Positions 49,508-57,272 of a stretch of DNA of 64,000 bases are shown in pieces. The notes beneath the pieces are model-generated. The model searched no databases, was not told the DNA's origin, and worked only from the letters and a program-made list of their open reading frames with translations. The translations under genes and the position numbers were made by a program. Position 1 is the stretch's first letter. Each line of letters opens with the position of its first letter. The DNA is taken from contig JASMBU010000003.1 of the NCBI GenBank assembly GCA_030753675.1, positions 1-64,000 on the forward strand, written 5' to 3'. The stretch comes from Methylococcales bacterium (GTDB lineage: Bacteria; Pseudomonadota; Gammaproteobacteria; Methylococcales; Methylomonadaceae).

Positions 49508-50407
49508 ATGAAAACATTGCTTTCTGCGCTGACTCCGCTCGCCATACTAACCCTTGCAATTATTATCGCGGGTGTCTTAGGGTATTTTATATTCCTCGCT
49601 ATTGACGGGGCAGTTCCTTTGCGCAAACTCATCAGTAAAACAGCCTTGGTACTTCTTCTACTCAGCATATTCCCTTTAATGCATTTTCTTAAACTATCTA
49701 AGGCCGACCTAGGTATTACAGCCAAAAAAGATTTTGCACACCAAATAATAACCGGATTAGTCCTAGGTATCGCTATCCTAACGCCTCTATTTCTTACTTT
49801 TTACTATCTTGATATCTGGGTTATTGATCACAACTTTCAGTTCACAGCAACCATAATACTGGCTAAAATATTCAAAATACTGCTCATTTCATTCCTTGTT
49901 TCCATCCCAGAAGAGATGCTTTTTCGAGGCATTCTTTTGACTAGCCTAACGCGTGCAAAAGGGATGCTATTTGCCATTCCATTCAGCGCTTTTTATTACG
50001 CAGGCCTCCATTTCCTTAAAAGTAAAACAGAAATACCTCCTGACGAAGCCAGCCTATCCAGTAGCTACTATTTAATAGCCGATGCTTTAACTCAACTGAC
50101 TAACCCTGAAAACCTATCTGCCTTTATTGCCCTCATGTCTGTAGGTATCTTTCTTGCCACTATACGAACAAAATCACCTATGAGCCTTGGGATATGCATT
50201 GGAATCCATGCCGGTTGGGTCTTTCTAATCAAAACAAATTCGGCATTTCTAAATCGAAATCCTAGTTCTGATTGGTATTTCTTGGTCAGCAATTATGACG
50301 GCGTTATCGGTCCTTTAGTCACCGTTTGGCTAACACTCATTACCGCGACATTTATAACCTATACCTACATACGGGACAAATCGACTAATAGCTCACTTGA
50401 ACCCTAA
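49508..50407 (+). CDS. CPBP-family intramembrane metalloprotease (CAAX/Abi type)
   Basis: The 299-residue protein has about eight hydrophobic segments and the three CPBP motifs: Glu-Glu-x3-Arg in PEEMLFRGILL (about 138-147), the histidine in FYYAGLHFL (about 167) and GIHAGWVF (about 237). In known members these bind zinc in the membrane. Family roles range from prenyl-protein processing to bacteriocin immunity; the substrate here is unknown. It starts 68 bases from the divergent tRNA-Leu and its last 23 bases overlap the convergent radical SAM gene. Confidence 0.87.
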   Translation: MKTLLSALTPLAILTLAIIIAGVLGYFIFLAIDGAVPLRKLISKTALVLLLLSIFPLMHFLKLSKADLGITAKKDFAHQIITGLVLGIAILTPLFLTFYYLDIWVIDHNFQFTATIILAKIFKILLISFLVSIPEEMLFRGILLTSLTRAKGMLFAIPFSAFYYAGLHFLKSKTEIPPDEASLSSSYYLIADALTQLTNPENLSAFIALMSVGIFLATIRTKSPMSLGICIGIHAGWVFLIKTNSAFLNRNPSSDWYFLVSNYDGVIGPLVTVWLTLITATFITYTYIRDKSTNSSLEP

Positions 50408-51236
50408 AGCCGATCCTTCTAATACTATCTGCCACCCGGTCCAATTGATAGCCTTGCACAGGAGCAATAACCCGCGCCTCCGGTTGCAAAGGTGGTCGCG
50501 CTATAGTATATAAATAAACTCCTTGGATCTTTGCTTTGATCCGAATCTCTTGCAAAAACAATTGATATGCCCTAACTTCACCATCAAAACTTATCTTTCC
50601 TGGATAATCAAATAAACAAGTTTGCAGCCAAAGCTCACACACCTCGCCAGTCACCTTAATATTTTCCATAATGCGTTCTACAGGAATCATCGTACTATTG
50701 ATTAACTCTCGCCCAGTGACCGTTGCACTATCTAACTTAAACCATACATGCCCACCCAATGCTCCCCATAGCGCCAAACCACACCTAACGGATTCTCGAT
50801 GCAATAAGCTACCATTAGTAATTAACACTAACTTGATCTGGCCCAACTTAGACCTACGCTCCAAAACCTCCTTAACCACCTCAATAGCCTCACCAAAACT
50901 GGCTAAACTCGTCGGCTCACCATTCCCGGAAATAGAAATATCCTTAATATCTCTACAATTAGGATCAACAGAAAAGTCACTATAAAAACGTCCTGAATCG
51001 ACATACGCAAGAAAAAAATACAGTTCTTCTCGTAATTTCAACAAATCAATATCCGGCGCACTGCCAACAGACAGTCCAGGCACTTGGCAATAGACACAAC
51101 GCCAATTACAGGCATTATTAACATTAAAATTAATCCCTACAGAAATTCCGCCTGCTCGCCTCGACAAAACGGGATAAATATAAGTCAATCCTGCCACATC
51201 ACGGCTGTGATCTTGAGTCGTTAACGTTGTTGCCAT
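50385..51236 (-). CDS. Radical SAM protein (COG0731-like), substrate unknown
   Basis: The protein (283 residues from ATG 51236) has the radical SAM cluster motif Cys-x3-Cys-x2-Cys at 43-50 (ACNWRCVYCQ), then DISISGNGEPTSL (a GGE-like SAM contact) and LVLITNGSLLHRE. It resembles Fe-S oxidoreductases related to wyosine-type enzymes, but without a clear substrate domain. TTG 51260 is an in-frame alternative start. It is divergent from the Fae-like gene, with 95 bases between, and so may share its regulation. No function should be assigned beyond radical SAM chemistry. Confidence 0.85.
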   Translation of the reverse strand: MATTLTTQDHSRDVAGLTYIYPVLSRRAGGISVGINFNVNNACNWRCVYCQVPGLSVGSAPDIDLLKLREELYFFLAYVDSGRFYSDFSVDPNCRDIKDISISGNGEPTSLASFGEAIEVVKEVLERRSKLGQIKLVLITNGSLLHRESVRCGLALWGALGGHVWFKLDSATVTGRELINSTMIPVERIMENIKVTGEVCELWLQTCLFDYPGKISFDGEVRAYQLFLQEIRIKAKIQGVYLYTIARPPLQPEARVIAPVQGYQLDRVADSIRRIGFRVQVSY

Positions 51237-51331
51237 AAAGCAAATAAATATAACCCACAAATATGCTATTCTAGTCGTTTACATTACTAATCATAAGTAT
51301 TTTTTTAACCACCTTCTTTTGGAGAAACACC

Positions 51332-51880
51332 ATGAGTGAAAGAATTATAATGCGGACCGGTGAATCCTTAGTCGCTGGCGGTCCTCCCGGAACAGCAGCA
51401 GAACCCGAAATAATTATTGGTGAACTAGACGGTCCTGTTGGCACTGCTCTAGCAACATTAACGGGCGACCAAGTCAAAGGCCACTCGCGCGTTTTTGCTA
51501 TTTTAAATACCGATATACAAGTTCGCCCGGTCACATTAATGGTGAGCAAAGTCACTGTTAAAGATAATCGCTATACTAATATTTTAATGGGCACTGTCCA
51601 AGCTGCTATTGCAAACGGTGTTTTGGATGCTGTTAGAGCCGGTGACATTCCTAAGGAAAAAGCAAACGACTTAGGTATTATCGTATCTGTATGGCTTAAC
51701 CCTAGCGTTGCCACAGATGATAATCTCGACCACCAAATCCTTTTCGATATTCATCGTAAAGCAACGGCCCAAGCCATTCATAAAGCCATGAACCACCAAC
51801 CGAGTATTGACTGGCTTTTAGAGAATCAAGAAAATATTACCCACAAATATTTTCAAATGGGATTAGACGGTAAAATCTAA
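51332..51880 (+). CDS. Formaldehyde-activating enzyme (Fae) family paralogue, probable catalytic His replaced
   Basis: True Fae condenses formaldehyde with tetrahydromethanopterin. This 182-residue protein aligns along its length: GESLVAGG near the N terminus, EIIIGELDGPVGTAL, PVTLMVSKVTVKDNRY and MGTVQAAIANGVLDAVRAGDI. Against remembered M. extorquens Fae, the proposed general-acid His17 (context VAHIDLIIG) aligns with Glu24 (context AAEPEIIIG), so the protein is probably a Fae2/Fae3-type paralogue, not the main enzyme. A strong ribosome site TTTTGGAGAAACACC precedes it and a terminator follows. Its place beside the fhc genes ties it to C1 metabolism. Confidence 0.85.
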   Translation: MSERIIMRTGESLVAGGPPGTAAEPEIIIGELDGPVGTALATLTGDQVKGHSRVFAILNTDIQVRPVTLMVSKVTVKDNRYTNILMGTVQAAIANGVLDAVRAGDIPKEKANDLGIIVSVWLNPSVATDDNLDHQILFDIHRKATAQAIHKAMNHQPSIDWLLENQENITHKYFQMGLDGKI

Positions 51881-51900
51881 TCTTCATAGCTAACACAAAG

Positions 51901-51954
51901 ACCTAAGGCCCACAGAGACTGTTAACTCTGTAGCCCTTAGGTGCTTTACTTTTT
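51901..51954 (+). terminator. Terminator after the Fae-like gene
   Basis: Arms ACCTAAGG...ACAGAG (51901-51917) and CTCTGT...CCTTAGGT (51926-51942) pair around a 3-base internal loop and an 8-base apical loop, followed by TTTACTTTTT. It lies 21 bases past the stop and isolates this gene from the next. Confidence 0.72.
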
Positions 51955-52034: not shown

Positions 52035-52631
52035 ATGGTAAACCGAAAAACCACACTCAGCTTTCTTGCTTCTCACGGTGGCTCTGCTGCAAAAGCAATT
52101 ATCCAAGCGATAAGAAACCATGAACTCAGTGCCAACATTGGGGTTGTTATTACCAACAATGAGAACTCTGATATTTCTCAATGGTGCCTAGAAAACACGA
52201 TAAAAATAATTCACATCAGTGCATTAACGCACCCAAATAGTGTCCAAGAGGATAAAGCCATTGAAGACGCCCTCTCAGTCACCGGAACAGATTACGTAAT
52301 TTTATCTGGCTACATGAAGCATATAAAACAACAAACATTAGCCCGCTTCTCAAACAAAATATTGAATGTCCACCCGGCGTTACTACCAAAACACGGCGGC
52401 CAAGGCATGTATGGTGACCGCGTACATCAAGCGGTTCTTAATGCAAAAGAAACAATTAGCGGCGCCAGTATTCACTTTATCAATGAGGTCTATGATGATG
52501 GCCCCGTCATTGCCCAACAAGAAGTCCCTGTGTATCCCAATGATACTGTCGACACACTACGCCAACGTGTACAAGCTATCGAGCCGTTGCTTTATATTAA
52601 ATCAATCGCCAAAATACTAGACGCCCACTAA
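52035..52631 (+). CDS. PurN-like formyltransferase
   Basis: This 198-residue protein has the formyltransferase fold of glycinamide ribonucleotide transformylase. The catalytic Asn, His and Asp are all present: Asn111 and His113 in LNVHPALLPKHGGQGMYG, and Asp154/155 in YDDGPVIAQ. The N-terminal phosphate loop differs from classic PurN (SHGGSAAKAI in place of the Gly-Ser-Gly-Ser-Asn pattern), and GGQGMYG marks a separate branch also seen in Bacteroidetes-type PurN. It could be the purine enzyme or, given its place between the Fae-like and fhc genes, act on a C1-carrier substrate. Context alone suggests the latter. Confidence 0.85.
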   Translation: MVNRKTTLSFLASHGGSAAKAIIQAIRNHELSANIGVVITNNENSDISQWCLENTIKIIHISALTHPNSVQEDKAIEDALSVTGTDYVILSGYMKHIKQQTLARFSNKILNVHPALLPKHGGQGMYGDRVHQAVLNAKETISGASIHFINEVYDDGPVIAQQEVPVYPNDTVDTLRQRVQAIEPLLYIKSIAKILDAH

Positions 52632-52637
52632 AACGAT

Positions 52638-53459
52638 CTAGGCGCTACCCACCCGAACCAGAATCTCGCCACGACCAATCCCTGCTATATCGCCACCATA
52701 TCTATGCACACGATTAAAGTGTTGAGAGGAATCTGAAAATTTAGAATCAAATTTCGCCATTGTCTTAAACAACATGGGTAAAAATGAAAACGTATGGGTT
52801 CCACAATCACCAAATGTGACCGGAATCTTAGGTTGCTGCCACAATAACAATGTACCACGACGCATACCATAACCAATATTTCGTCCCGTCTCACCCATAA
52901 CCGCGATAGTTCCCGCCGTCATTCTAGCGCCACAATAATCGCCAGTACCGCCTTCAATCAAAATCATTCCGCGTCGCATATGATCTCCCACACGATCACC
53001 CGCATTCCCTTTAATAAGGACGGTACCACCCTGGATACCTTTTTTATTCCCCGGTAAAGCACTGCCGAGGAAATCACTAACATCACCAAGAACCTGTAAA
53101 AATCCATTTTTCATTTGGCAAGCAGCATATATCCCAACATTACCCGATACCGTTATTTCCCCCGCTCGCATATCCATAGCTAAATAAGCGCCCACATCAC
53201 CGGTTACCAGAATACTGCCACCGTCTAACCCACAACCAATATAATCTAATTTAGAAAAACTATTATTGATGTGTATCTTCCCAACATCTGACCCTGAAAT
53301 TGAAAACAACTCATCAACACGTAATTTTCTTTTACCATTCTGCAATTCAATAGCCGCAATTTCAGCCAAATCCAATCCTGCTAATTTATCACAGGTTATA
53401 GGCGACATATCAACACGCTGATCAGGCCTATACTTCATTGTCAACGTCAAATCAGTCAT
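52638..53459 (-). CDS. fhcC: FhcC, subunit C of the formyltransferase/hydrolase complex
   Basis: FhcC is the beta-helix subunit of the complex that converts formyl-H4MPT to formate through methanofuran. The 273-residue protein is made of Gly-rich repeats (GGSILVTGDVGAYLAMDMRAG, GGTVLIKGNAGDRVGDHMRRG, AGTIAVMGETGRNIGYGMRRG), as in FmdC/FwdC and the C-terminal domain of glutamate synthase. It overlaps fhcD by 8 bases and its end is 6 bases from the convergent PurN-like gene. Confidence 0.94.
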   Translation of the reverse strand: MTDLTLTMKYRPDQRVDMSPITCDKLAGLDLAEIAAIELQNGKRKLRVDELFSISGSDVGKIHINNSFSKLDYIGCGLDGGSILVTGDVGAYLAMDMRAGEITVSGNVGIYAACQMKNGFLQVLGDVSDFLGSALPGNKKGIQGGTVLIKGNAGDRVGDHMRRGMILIEGGTGDYCGARMTAGTIAVMGETGRNIGYGMRRGTLLLWQQPKIPVTFGDCGTHTFSFLPMLFKTMAKFDSKFSDSSQHFNRVHRYGGDIAGIGRGEILVRVGSA

Positions 53460-54351
53460 TCATAATCTCCTGTAAATGAAAATGATAGGGCCCTAATTTC
53501 CCGCCATAATTACCGGCGCTAATACGTTTAACACCATTATAAGCACCAATCGAACAAAAGGTCTCCATGCCTACTTTCATCGCTTTTTTTATATCAGTCT
53601 CGGTCAAACCATCAATAACAATCTCCATGACCGATTCAATTTCTGGAGACAACTCAGATTTCGTAATCCCTTTTAACGTTGGACAAAAAGCATCATTAGT
53701 CGATGCGGTCAAAGCCGGATACTTTGACCCAACTTTAGAACCAGAACGCACCACACCCCCCGGGAAAGGCAAGATAACATTAGGTACTTTGCGCATTTCA
53801 AGAACAGCCTTTTCACATGCCTCTAATGCATCTACTTCAGACTCCGCCAGAATAAGTAAATTACCGCCGCCAATAGCATTCACCTGCCCCGTTGTTTCTT
53901 CAACCAGAAACTCACCATCCATCACAGGAATTCGCCAATAACGATTATCATTAATCACTTTAGAGGTCTGAAAACCATCACCAAAATAACGCAAATTCTT
54001 GCCTAATGGAATTCGGATACCGCCATCGATACCTGAAAACAAAGCAGAGGTCGGAGAGGTCAACACACTCTGCCCCGCTCTCGTTTCAAGCTGCTTTACT
54101 AATGATTTGGCACCCATGGTAAACAACATGGCAGAAACGCCTGGACGCCCATCCGGTGTCTCTGAAGGCTTTAAATACCGTTCAATATCTGCCTCACAAC
54201 CACAGCCAATGACTGACGTCGCAAATCCCGTCATCGACTTAGCCGCATTAAAAGCCCATTGCTCAGTATGTGCCGTAATGACGACACGCGTAGCCTTCAT
54301 CGAAAAAGCTTCTGCGAAAGTATGATCGACCAAGACACCATTAATGATCAT
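53452..54351 (-). CDS. fhcD: FhcD, formylmethanofuran:tetrahydromethanopterin formyltransferase
   Basis: FhcD (Ftr) transfers the formyl group between H4MPT and methanofuran. The 299-residue protein shows the family opening (NGVLVDHTFAEAFSMKATRVVITA), GCGCEADIERYL, TPDGRPGVSAMLF, NAIGGGNLLILAES, FPGGVVRSGSKVGSKYP and a C-terminal NYGGKLGPYHFHL. Length matches archaeal Ftr. It overlaps fhcA by four bases and fhcC by eight: a tightly coupled operon. Confidence 0.96.
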   Translation of the reverse strand: MIINGVLVDHTFAEAFSMKATRVVITAHTEQWAFNAAKSMTGFATSVIGCGCEADIERYLKPSETPDGRPGVSAMLFTMGAKSLVKQLETRAGQSVLTSPTSALFSGIDGGIRIPLGKNLRYFGDGFQTSKVINDNRYWRIPVMDGEFLVEETTGQVNAIGGGNLLILAESEVDALEACEKAVLEMRKVPNVILPFPGGVVRSGSKVGSKYPALTASTNDAFCPTLKGITKSELSPEIESVMEIVIDGLTETDIKKAMKVGMETFCSIGAYNGVKRISAGNYGGKLGPYHFHLQEIMND

Positions 54352-56012
54352 AAAATACCTCTCTGGGTTGGTTGAACAGTCAATGTGTTTCGCCCGTCTT
54401 CGGTTATTTCATCATTACTAATTTTGAAGTTCCCCATCTTCATGGTCATATGGCGACTAAAATATTTCGCCAAATCCTTTTCAATACCGCTATCAAATTC
54501 AGGCGTAACAATATGTGTTGTACCCCATTTAATATGAACAATTTCACCGTCTCTAACTACTAATTCGCCATCTTTAAACACATAATCAGGCTTTTCAAAC
54601 ATCTTTTCTCGATTATCATCCGGTGTATATACCGTAATATCTGCCCAAGCCCCTACACCCAAATGCCCTCGATTTTCCAAACCCACTAACTTTGCCGCCC
54701 CTGCACGCGTCATAATTGCAATCTCTTGCAATGAATACTCTCTGTCAATTGTATCTAGCGTTGTCATTTTCTGCGCTTCAGGATGAATCGTTTTCAACAT
54801 ATCGTTGCGAAAACTTCTATCCATTAGTAACCGAATCAAATGTGGGTAAGAGGTAAAAGGAGCTCCATTAGGATGATCTGTTGTCAAAAAGATGCGCCAA
54901 GGATCTTCAACCAAAAGAAAGGTTTCTAAACCAATCGCCCACTGTAAGGCATTAACAAAATTCTGATCCCGATACTTGAAAGGAACCAAACCACAACCTG
55001 CATCACATTCTATATCCATACAAACCCACTTATTAGGACTTGCATGCTTATGATTAGCATGTTGTTTCATGCTATCCCCAGATGCCGTAATCGTTTGCCC
55101 GAACATCACCTGCCCCACATCAACGGTAATATTCTTATTCTTATTAATTGCTTCGGCAATTTCAGTGGCGCCCGAAGAAAATTTAAAATCACCTTCAACC
55201 CCATAACTGTGAAACTGTATATGGGTTAAATGCATCGACAACCCGCCAATACCCTCAATGGTTGACAGGGTGGTATCTTTATTACCCGGTACGCCAAGAT
55301 TACAACCATGAACATGCAATGGATGTGAAATACCCAATTCTTTAACTGCTATCGCCAAAACACTAAGAATATCTCTAGGGGTCACATTATAAAACTGATT
55401 ATTTTCATCCAGATCAAGTTGACGTTGATTAAATTTGAAGGCATTAATACCGCCTGGATTAACAACTTTTACACCAATACCTTTTGTAGCATTAAGCGTC
55501 CATGCCACATAATCGTTGATTGCTTGTTGATCCTTTTTAGCCGTCATCATTTGCAAGAAATAATCATCGCTTCCCATCAAGACATAGCCGCCTTTATCTA
55601 AAATAGGGATGTCACCCATTTCCATATGCGCTTGACGAGCATTAACCGGCAATACTGCCGGTTCAAAAACTGAGGTATACCCCATTTCAGCATATCGATA
55701 ACCAGTCACATAAGAAGAAGGCAAAGCACGCCCTGTTCCTGATCGCGTTAATTCTGTAGCTGCAACCGGATCAGAACGATGATCTTCTGGTAACAAAATT
55801 CTAGCAATATTATTTTTCCCGCCACCGACATGGGTATGTATATCTATAGCACCCGCCATTACTATTTTGCCACGCAGATCAATTTCCTGATCAACCTGAG
55901 TTACTTCTTGCTTAGATACAATACGATCATTTTTAATGTAAATATCTAGCGCTTTGCCATTAACATTATTGGCGGGGTCGTAAACCATCCCACCGGTAAG
56001 TTTTATTATCAT
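54348..56012 (-). CDS. fhcA: FhcA, amidohydrolase subunit of the formyltransferase/hydrolase complex
   Basis: FhcA hydrolyses formylmethanofuran to formate and methanofuran at a dinuclear metal site. The 554-residue protein is an amidohydrolase: IDIHTHVGGG (His59, His61), further ligands in HPLHVHGCNLG and LTHIQFHSYG, and the aspartate in FLTTDHPNGAPF. The C-terminal VGLENRGHLGVGAWADITVY is typical of dihydroorotase-like folds. It begins 4 bases after fhcB. Confidence 0.96.
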   Translation of the reverse strand: MIIKLTGGMVYDPANNVNGKALDIYIKNDRIVSKQEVTQVDQEIDLRGKIVMAGAIDIHTHVGGGKNNIARILLPEDHRSDPVAATELTRSGTGRALPSSYVTGYRYAEMGYTSVFEPAVLPVNARQAHMEMGDIPILDKGGYVLMGSDDYFLQMMTAKKDQQAINDYVAWTLNATKGIGVKVVNPGGINAFKFNQRQLDLDENNQFYNVTPRDILSVLAIAVKELGISHPLHVHGCNLGVPGNKDTTLSTIEGIGGLSMHLTHIQFHSYGVEGDFKFSSGATEIAEAINKNKNITVDVGQVMFGQTITASGDSMKQHANHKHASPNKWVCMDIECDAGCGLVPFKYRDQNFVNALQWAIGLETFLLVEDPWRIFLTTDHPNGAPFTSYPHLIRLLMDRSFRNDMLKTIHPEAQKMTTLDTIDREYSLQEIAIMTRAGAAKLVGLENRGHLGVGAWADITVYTPDDNREKMFEKPDYVFKDGELVVRDGEIVHIKWGTTHIVTPEFDSGIEKDLAKYFSRHMTMKMGNFKISNDEITEDGRNTLTVQPTQRGIL

Positions 56013-56015
56013 TTT

Positions 56016-57272
56016 TTACAGTGCCTGATCAATTAACGTCAATACTTCTGCTGTTGAAGGCAATCCTGACTCCCTTAATTTTTGCAATCGAATAGCAACG
56101 ATACCATCCATTCGGAATGCATGCCCACAATGATCGATTCCCGGTGTACCAACCGGAATGAATACCGCTGGTTCTTTTTCAAAATGCATCCCAGAACGAC
56201 CAATCACAATCGTTGGAACAACACCCTCGGGTGGTAATGCCTTACTATTAAAGTCATGCACCCATAATAAGGCATCAACCTCTTTATTCTCCAACAATAA
56301 CTGCCCATCATAAAGATAAGGATCGTACTCTGGGAAACCTTTTGCAAAAGACAATCGAGCGGGATAACCTGTCAACCAAGCCGTTACTTGATTCGCAGTT
56401 TGATCACCGTCACTACCCCCTAGCGGCAAGCCAGAGCAGCGCGTTTTTCCATTAAGATCTTTCACCAACTCACAAATAACCTGCACCGTCAATTCTGCAT
56501 GCGGGAAATCCAATGAACCAGCTGACCAAGTCACTACACCATAAACAGCCCCTTTTAACTGCCCAGCCAACGCCTGTAAGTCCGTTAACGCTAAACCGTC
56601 CACTTCATAGTGGGAAATATTATTTCCTTTTACTAAAGCCCTTAAAACGGCCACTACTTCTGGCAAATCCTCATCTGCACAAGGCAATACTTGAGGCCTA
56701 ACACCCGCCGGTGATACCGCAGATTGGCCCGAAGGTTCTTTACCTAAATAAATCACTTTACATTGCGCACCAGCCTCTAAAAACATGGGCGATTCATTCC
56801 AGATGAAATGCTCAAAAAAACGCGGTGAAACCTCTTCTAAATCAGTACCAATAACCACCAACAAATCACAACGATTTTTAACCTCAGCAAGCGTTGTCGT
56901 CATCCAACCCGAATCTTGTAAGGCCAAAATATTACGGCGTGTTGTATTAAATGCAATATTATCGACAACTGCACCGTTATGATCCGCCAATGAAACCAAA
57001 GCACGCATACCATTTACGTCCGTTGCACAGCCCCCAATTAAAGTCTGATGCGAAGTCTTAAGAATATCTGCTGCTTGTGCGACAGCGTCCTCAATTGCAA
57101 CCTCTTTCCCGTTGACCCTAGGAACAATATCTCCAATGGCTTGCTCAAATGCCGGTGTATTAATAGCACAACCATTGGCCAGCACATTAATAGATTTTCC
57201 ATCTACATTAAGCACTAGATCATCTGTCCCGATACCGCAAAAAGGGCTAGGAACCTCAGTTTTTGTCGTCAT
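56016..57272 (-). CDS. fhcB: FhcB, subunit B of the formyltransferase/hydrolase complex
   Basis: FhcB corresponds to the molybdenum/tungsten subunit of archaeal formylmethanofuran dehydrogenase, but bacterial versions carry no redox site. The 418-residue protein keeps the fold (PFCGIGTDDLVLNVDG, GGCATDVNGMRALVSLAD, VKNRCDLLVVIGTDL, GLPLGGSDGDQTANQV). The position aligned with the archaeal metal-ligand cysteine appears to be Thr in FNTTRRNILALQ. It is the first gene of fhcBADC, starts 45 bases after the rpsI terminator, and has AGGA before its ATG. Confidence 0.93.
   Translation of the reverse strand: MTTKTEVPSPFCGIGTDDLVLNVDGKSINVLANGCAINTPAFEQAIGDIVPRVNGKEVAIEDAVAQAADILKTSHQTLIGGCATDVNGMRALVSLADHNGAVVDNIAFNTTRRNILALQDSGWMTTTLAEVKNRCDLLVVIGTDLEEVSPRFFEHFIWNESPMFLEAGAQCKVIYLGKEPSGQSAVSPAGVRPQVLPCADEDLPEVVAVLRALVKGNNISHYEVDGLALTDLQALAGQLKGAVYGVVTWSAGSLDFPHAELTVQVICELVKDLNGKTRCSGLPLGGSDGDQTANQVTAWLTGYPARLSFAKGFPEYDPYLYDGQLLLENKEVDALLWVHDFNSKALPPEGVVPTIVIGRSGMHFEKEPAVFIPVGTPGIDHCGHAFRMDGIVAIRLQKLRESGLPSTAEVLTLIDQAL

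Follow-up and report, generated by a model that had tools for sequence, protein, structure and literature searches.

Fae3 of a Methylococcales bacterium, a Fae paralogue with an invariant glutamate in place of the proposed catalytic histidine and a possible accessory role in the H4MPT pathway

Methylotrophs have long been seen to carry homologues of the formaldehyde-activating enzyme, Fae, that have no assigned function. One of these homologues is encoded in the window analysed here, a stretch of 64,000 nucleotides from the genome of a Methylococcales bacterium, and the question it raises is what a protein with the Fae fold does once the proposed catalytic histidine has gone. The initial annotation of the gene suggested that its product may bind methylene-H4MPT or formaldehyde without catalysing condensation, for example as a sensor, carrier or chaperone, or that it may catalyse another reaction.

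The open reading frame occupies exactly positions 51332-51880 of the forward strand and encodes 182 aa. This lone fae3 gene is preceded by a divergent radical SAM gene and followed by a PurN-like gene and then by fhcCDAB on the opposite strand (Table 1). The strong ribosome site claimed for it is present as a GGAG, and the claim that it possesses its own terminator stands in part: a strong hairpin lies downstream of the gene and is shared with four near relatives, which do not share the T-run behind it, so that the status of the hairpin as fae3's own terminator is only plausible. The PurN-like formyltransferase (198 aa, 52035-52631, forward strand) scores 140.6 bits, just under the NCBI PurN cut-off of 150.1, and its gene adjoins fae3 in the nearest relatives too.

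Table 1. Positions in the window of fae3, of its flanking features and of the codons discussed in the text
Feature	Position	Strand	Basis or remark
Radical SAM gene, divergent fae3 neighbour in many Methylococcales	50385..51260	-	PF04055 just over cut-off; synteny
Ribosome-binding site GGAG	51321..51324	+	7 nt before ATG; kept in near relatives
fae3, 182-aa Fae paralogue with Glu at the His17 position	51332..51880	+	PF08714, AlphaFold2 model, orthologues
Codons 18-19 (Pro-Pro), two-residue insertion before the active-site strand	51383..51388	+	Alignments
Codons Glu24-Pro25-Glu26, replacing His17-Ile18-Asp19 of canonical Fae	51401..51409	+	Motif counts; model strand start at Pro25
Codons Lys73-Val74-Thr75; Lys73 and Thr75 correspond to canonical Lys66 and Thr68	51548..51556	+	Invariant in Fae3 clade, nearly so in canonical Fae
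Codon Gln90, corresponding to canonical Gln83	51599..51601	+	121/121 Fae3 clade, 55/57 canonical, 40/40 sister clade
Hairpin 3' of fae3, possible terminator	51897..51947	+	-22.8 kcal/mol, z -3.41
fhcC	52638..53459	-	Place in fhcCDAB order next to fhcB; families shared with other loci
fhcD	53452..54351	-	fhcCDAB order; families shared with other loci
fhcA	54348..56012	-	fhcCDAB order; families shared with other loci
fhcB	56016..57272	-	TIGR03129, 339.9 bits (cut-off 327.8)

Membership of the Fae family is clear. The protein matches PF08714 with 198.4 bits (curated cut-off 27), and its AlphaFold2 model (pLDDT 95.7) superimposes on 1y5y with a Z score of 25.2 and an rmsd of 1.3 Å over 161 residues; for 1y5y and 1y60 taken together, Z is 25, the rmsd 1.3-1.5 Å and TM 0.86, in agreement with the claim that the rest of the fold is conserved. 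These two structures of M. extorquens Fae and a chain named Avd with a Fae part are the only solved-structure relatives of the protein. The model of Fae3 and that of the canonical Fae encoded elsewhere in the genome share the same elements, with a two-residue shift up to the last strand that matches the sequence alignment. The strand bearing His17 begins later in Fae3, at residue 26 as against 23 predicted from the canonical model, and Pro25 sits there.

The departure from the enzyme lies in the active site. His17, which we take to be the proposed catalytic histidine of M. extorquens Fae in the literature numbering (residue 21 in the PDB chain when Ala1 is taken as the first; six annotated positions of the enzyme all fit this chain with one constant offset), stands opposite Glu24 in sequence, profile and multiple alignments, VAHIDLIIG pairing with AAEPEIIIG ungapped to the IIG anchor. 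This pairing had been proposed from the outset together with an N-terminal loop two residues longer, and the extra residues are indeed found upstream of Glu24, as the prolines at 18-19. The histidine of the AHID motif, which marks the enzyme Fae, is absent from the window protein, as had been claimed, and also from its orthologues: among the distinct sequences gathered from relatives, the position is Glu in 121/121 proteins of the Fae3 clade, His in 57/57 canonical proteins and Met in 40/40 proteins of a sister clade. The surrounding motif is equally strict, reading EPE, HID and MPE, respectively, in every member of the three sets, with Ile18 replaced by Pro and Asp19 by Glu in both non-canonical clades. 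Chance or an alignment artefact was rejected as the source of the change, since the motif is invariant and the alignment ungapped to the anchor. Canonical His116 is also gone, with Asn123 in its place in 114 of the 121 Fae3 sequences. Lys66, Thr68 and Gln83, which we take from the UniProt annotation of M. extorquens Fae to be its H4MPT contacts, are all kept, as Lys73, Thr75 and Gln90.

Glutamate can serve as a general acid; loss of the histidine alone is therefore no proof of lost catalysis, and Glu24 itself could act as the acid. No substitute for His17 is evident among the Fae3 histidines compared across the classes (H51, H171, H134 and H141). H171 is universal and common to all classes, and H51 is an unlikely replacement because it occurs together with His17 in 19 of the 57 canonical proteins. 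H134 and H141, the sole histidines specific to the Fae3 clade, would be the candidates, judging from their distribution among the sequences.

Published work bears on the activity of the clade, as genome position and Fae content identify the window gene as orthologous to MEALZ_RS07105, the Fae3 gene of Methylotuvimicrobium alcaliphilum 20Z. One of the genomes compared (G726) is that of this strain, its plasmid matching NC_016108.1 at 100%, and just three Fae genes occur in it, of which two are canonical and one, at 1,649,428, is of the Glu type. The three match the tags MEALZ_RS04100, RS07105 and RS11875, described as fae1-2, fae3 and fae1, respectively (PMC11748545), in order and spacing (227, 232 and 234 bp per tag unit), and the Glu-type gene is therefore fae3. 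In an AM1 delta-fae background, fae3 neither relieved methanol sensitivity nor restored growth, whereas two canonical fae copies did relieve the sensitivity on plates; deletion of fae3 in M. alcaliphilum caused no laboratory growth defect, and its transcripts amount to about a quarter of those of fae1 (PMC11748545). The same paper describes Fae groups 2-4 as being of unknown function and makes no mention of active-site residues; our literature search found no paper naming the loss of the histidine, and one may still exist. Two other reports concern genes with similar names. The La-induced fae2 of PMC6277846 is apparently the gene later named fae1-2 rather than an orthologue of the window gene, and a Fae3 described in Methyloversatilis universalis as 12-fold upregulated on methylamine (PMC5023235) may or may not belong to the Glu clade.

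The proposal that the protein does not catalyse condensation is thus backed by the failure of an orthologue to replace Fae in vivo, a failure that the His-to-Glu change fits. It is very improbable that Fae3 is a working Fae isoenzyme with Glu24 in place of the histidine: the fold and the annotated contact residues are intact, and the NCBI equivalog-domain model TIGR03126 is just passed (118.9 bits, cut-off 118.05), but the orthologue does not complement where the canonical copies do, and none of the canonical proteins has a glutamate at this position. As TIGR03126 lets Fae3 through as a formaldehyde-activating enzyme by less than 1 bit, surveys of genomes that equate fae genes with functional Fae can give a misleading picture.

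Three Fae classes are found in Methylococcales. In the tree, the Glu class (support 99/98) holds both the window protein and M. alcaliphilum Fae3 (L294, assigned to MEALZ_RS07105 by position), the Met class is supported by 98/97, and a long branch joins both to canonical Fae. The Glu class ranges over Gammaproteobacteria (in the GTDB sense, including Methylophilaceae), other proteobacteria and Planctomycetes, and coexists with a canonical copy in nearly all genomes. This includes the window's own genome, in which the suggested check for a canonical fae located one at G000:C66:15214-15687. A canonical Fae frame at L001:1489-2130 (reverse strand) can be read from a GTG start, which lengthens it by about 44 residues; the internal ATG at MAKINKM... 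is likelier. A Methylophilales MAG with Fae3 and no true Fae (G066) proved unusable, as the contig with its H4MPT island ends near the expected place of fae. Several Met-type paralogues from Methylococcales (L136, L140, L154, L155, L180, L181 and others) adjoin genes that look, by sequence, like pqiA, pqiB and pqiC, and a further Fae class, seen in other genomes from the same GTDB class (L318, L319, L320 and L321), has AHIN or SHIN for AHID, keeping the histidine and changing Asp19 to Asn.

Strong purifying selection acts on fae3. Its dN/dS against near relatives is 0.02-0.05 and the frames are open throughout, on which grounds a pseudogene or decaying copy was rejected, and the gene is retained even in genomes of 1.0-1.1 Mb. 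In 13/13 genome pairs compared, Fae3 shows a higher identity to the window protein than canonical Fae shows to its own counterpart; for a Rhodopirellula pair, the values are 90% for Fae3 and 58% for canonical Fae. The Fae3 proteins of some Pirellulaceae (Planctomycetes; L075, L112 and L223-L228) nest among the gammaproteobacterial ones, with the same 90% identity to the window protein and 58% for canonical Fae, which suggests horizontal transfer. Such transfer may lie behind part of the higher conservation of Fae3 for Pirellulaceae, not for pairs inside Methylococcales.

The common denominator of fae3 genomes is the H4MPT pathway. Mch was found in 11/12 genomes tested and wherever the genome looked complete, and the sole exception is also without canonical fae; for G002, where canonical fae and mch are both missing, a lost contig is likely. 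Genes for Fhc lie close by at 23 of 128 Glu-class loci (a partly redundant set in which some genomes are counted twice) and at 0/30 Met-class loci; a single one of the 23 is from outside Methylococcales. In G399, a distant lineage, the genes run fhcB-A-D-C-fae3 on a single strand in an operon-like array, fhcC being separated from fae3 by about 30 bp, and mch and canonical fae lie about 8-11 kb away. No conserved neighbour of fae3 was found across the loci compared outside Methylococcales and G399, so the Fhc link is local, and, as those in Methylococcales may go back to a single inheritance, it rests on two arrangements. A PQQ methanol dehydrogenase is missing from several fae3 genomes, and a general association with this enzyme was accordingly dropped. 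Five genomes of 1.0-1.1 Mb (G106, G208, G320, G352 and G415) keep fae and fae3, and mch in the two tested, and in none of the five does a PQQ methanol dehydrogenase exceed the cut-off.

Two further explanations give Fae3 an active role. It could be the enzyme of another C1 reaction, with Glu24 and Glu26 as acid-base groups, releasing formaldehyde from H4MPT and H4F, for example, or exchanging the methylene group between them. Two acidic residues invariant in 121/121 proteins exceed the needs of a mere binder, slow evolution points the same way, and earlier work has put such an exchange forward for Fae homologues (PMC5023235, PMC6277846). Growth of the fae3 deletion mutant without defect speaks against it, and formaldehyde release for the RuMP pathway is no general role because hexulose-phosphate synthase exceeds the cut-off in only 6/29 proteobacterial fae3 genomes of the panel; a general link between fae3 and that pathway was rejected for the same reason. 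On balance, we regard another C1 reaction as unlikely. A role in sensing or regulation, in which Fae3 would respond to formaldehyde or to the charging of H4MPT and signal via a conserved surface or the C-terminal tail, is more doubtful still. The tail is clade-specific, most of its positions showing a conservation of about 90% or more, Fae homologues have been suggested as sensors (PMC3728764, PMC11748545), and the deletion mutant shows no phenotype under constant laboratory growth; against this, no conserved regulatory partner lies beside fae3, and most fae3 genomes from outside Methylococcales lack the radical SAM neighbour, which was also rejected as an obligate partner there.

With the pocket residues kept, the histidine gone and complementation negative, the most economical reading is that of an H4MPT binder without useful condensing activity, and we put the probability that Fae3 is such an accessory of the H4MPT oxidation pathway, an old and slowly evolving paralogue beside canonical Fae, at roughly 0.45. 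Fae3 would use the Fae pocket to bind H4MPT or methylene-H4MPT, would lack a useful rate of formaldehyde condensation onto H4MPT, and would hold or buffer the C1-loaded cofactor or pass it along, perhaps towards Fhc, the C-terminal tail being a candidate contact surface. More tentatively, it might be a distinct H4MPT-dependent protein, either an enzyme or a C1-cofactor carrier, that works with Fhc, has an invariant Glu-Pro-Glu for the proposed catalytic histidine and is held to stricter cross-phylum conservation than its parent enzyme. The interpretation that was offered at the start stands in so far as this is a Fae paralogue without the proposed catalytic histidine, with a canonical fae present and the annotated H4MPT contacts kept; it does not stand as a peculiarity, the protein being an ordinary member of a Fae3 family already described. 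New here are the invariant His-to-Glu replacement, the slow evolution, the fhc adjacency and the absence of a general RuMP or PQQ link. With a single invariant change in the active site, in line with the published failure of complementation, the question of the Fae homologues becomes testable.

Among known systems, canonical Fae of M. extorquens AM1 (1y5y, 1y60) shares with Fae3 the fold, Lys66, Thr68, Gln83 and the general length, at 28-30% identity to the window protein. It differs in His17, Ile18, Asp19 and His116, which are Glu, Pro, Glu and Asn in Fae3, and in lacking the two inserted residues, a five-residue insertion near 128-132 and the C-terminal tail. The Met-type paralogues (AMPE motif), a neighbouring clade in the tree and about 45% identical, have likewise lost His17, acquired the PE motif and kept the contact residues, but have Met instead of Glu, are without fhc neighbours and are absent from both M. 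alcaliphilum and the window genome; they may be what the literature calls Fae2. The closest described system is Fae3 of M. alcaliphilum 20ZR (PMC11748545), which is 93% identical, has the same EPE motif and coexists with canonical Fae; nothing of note distinguishes the two proteins, and the difference lies in the surroundings, the M. alcaliphilum gene standing beside a radical SAM gene and not fhc, the window copy next to fhcCDAB and the PurN-like gene.
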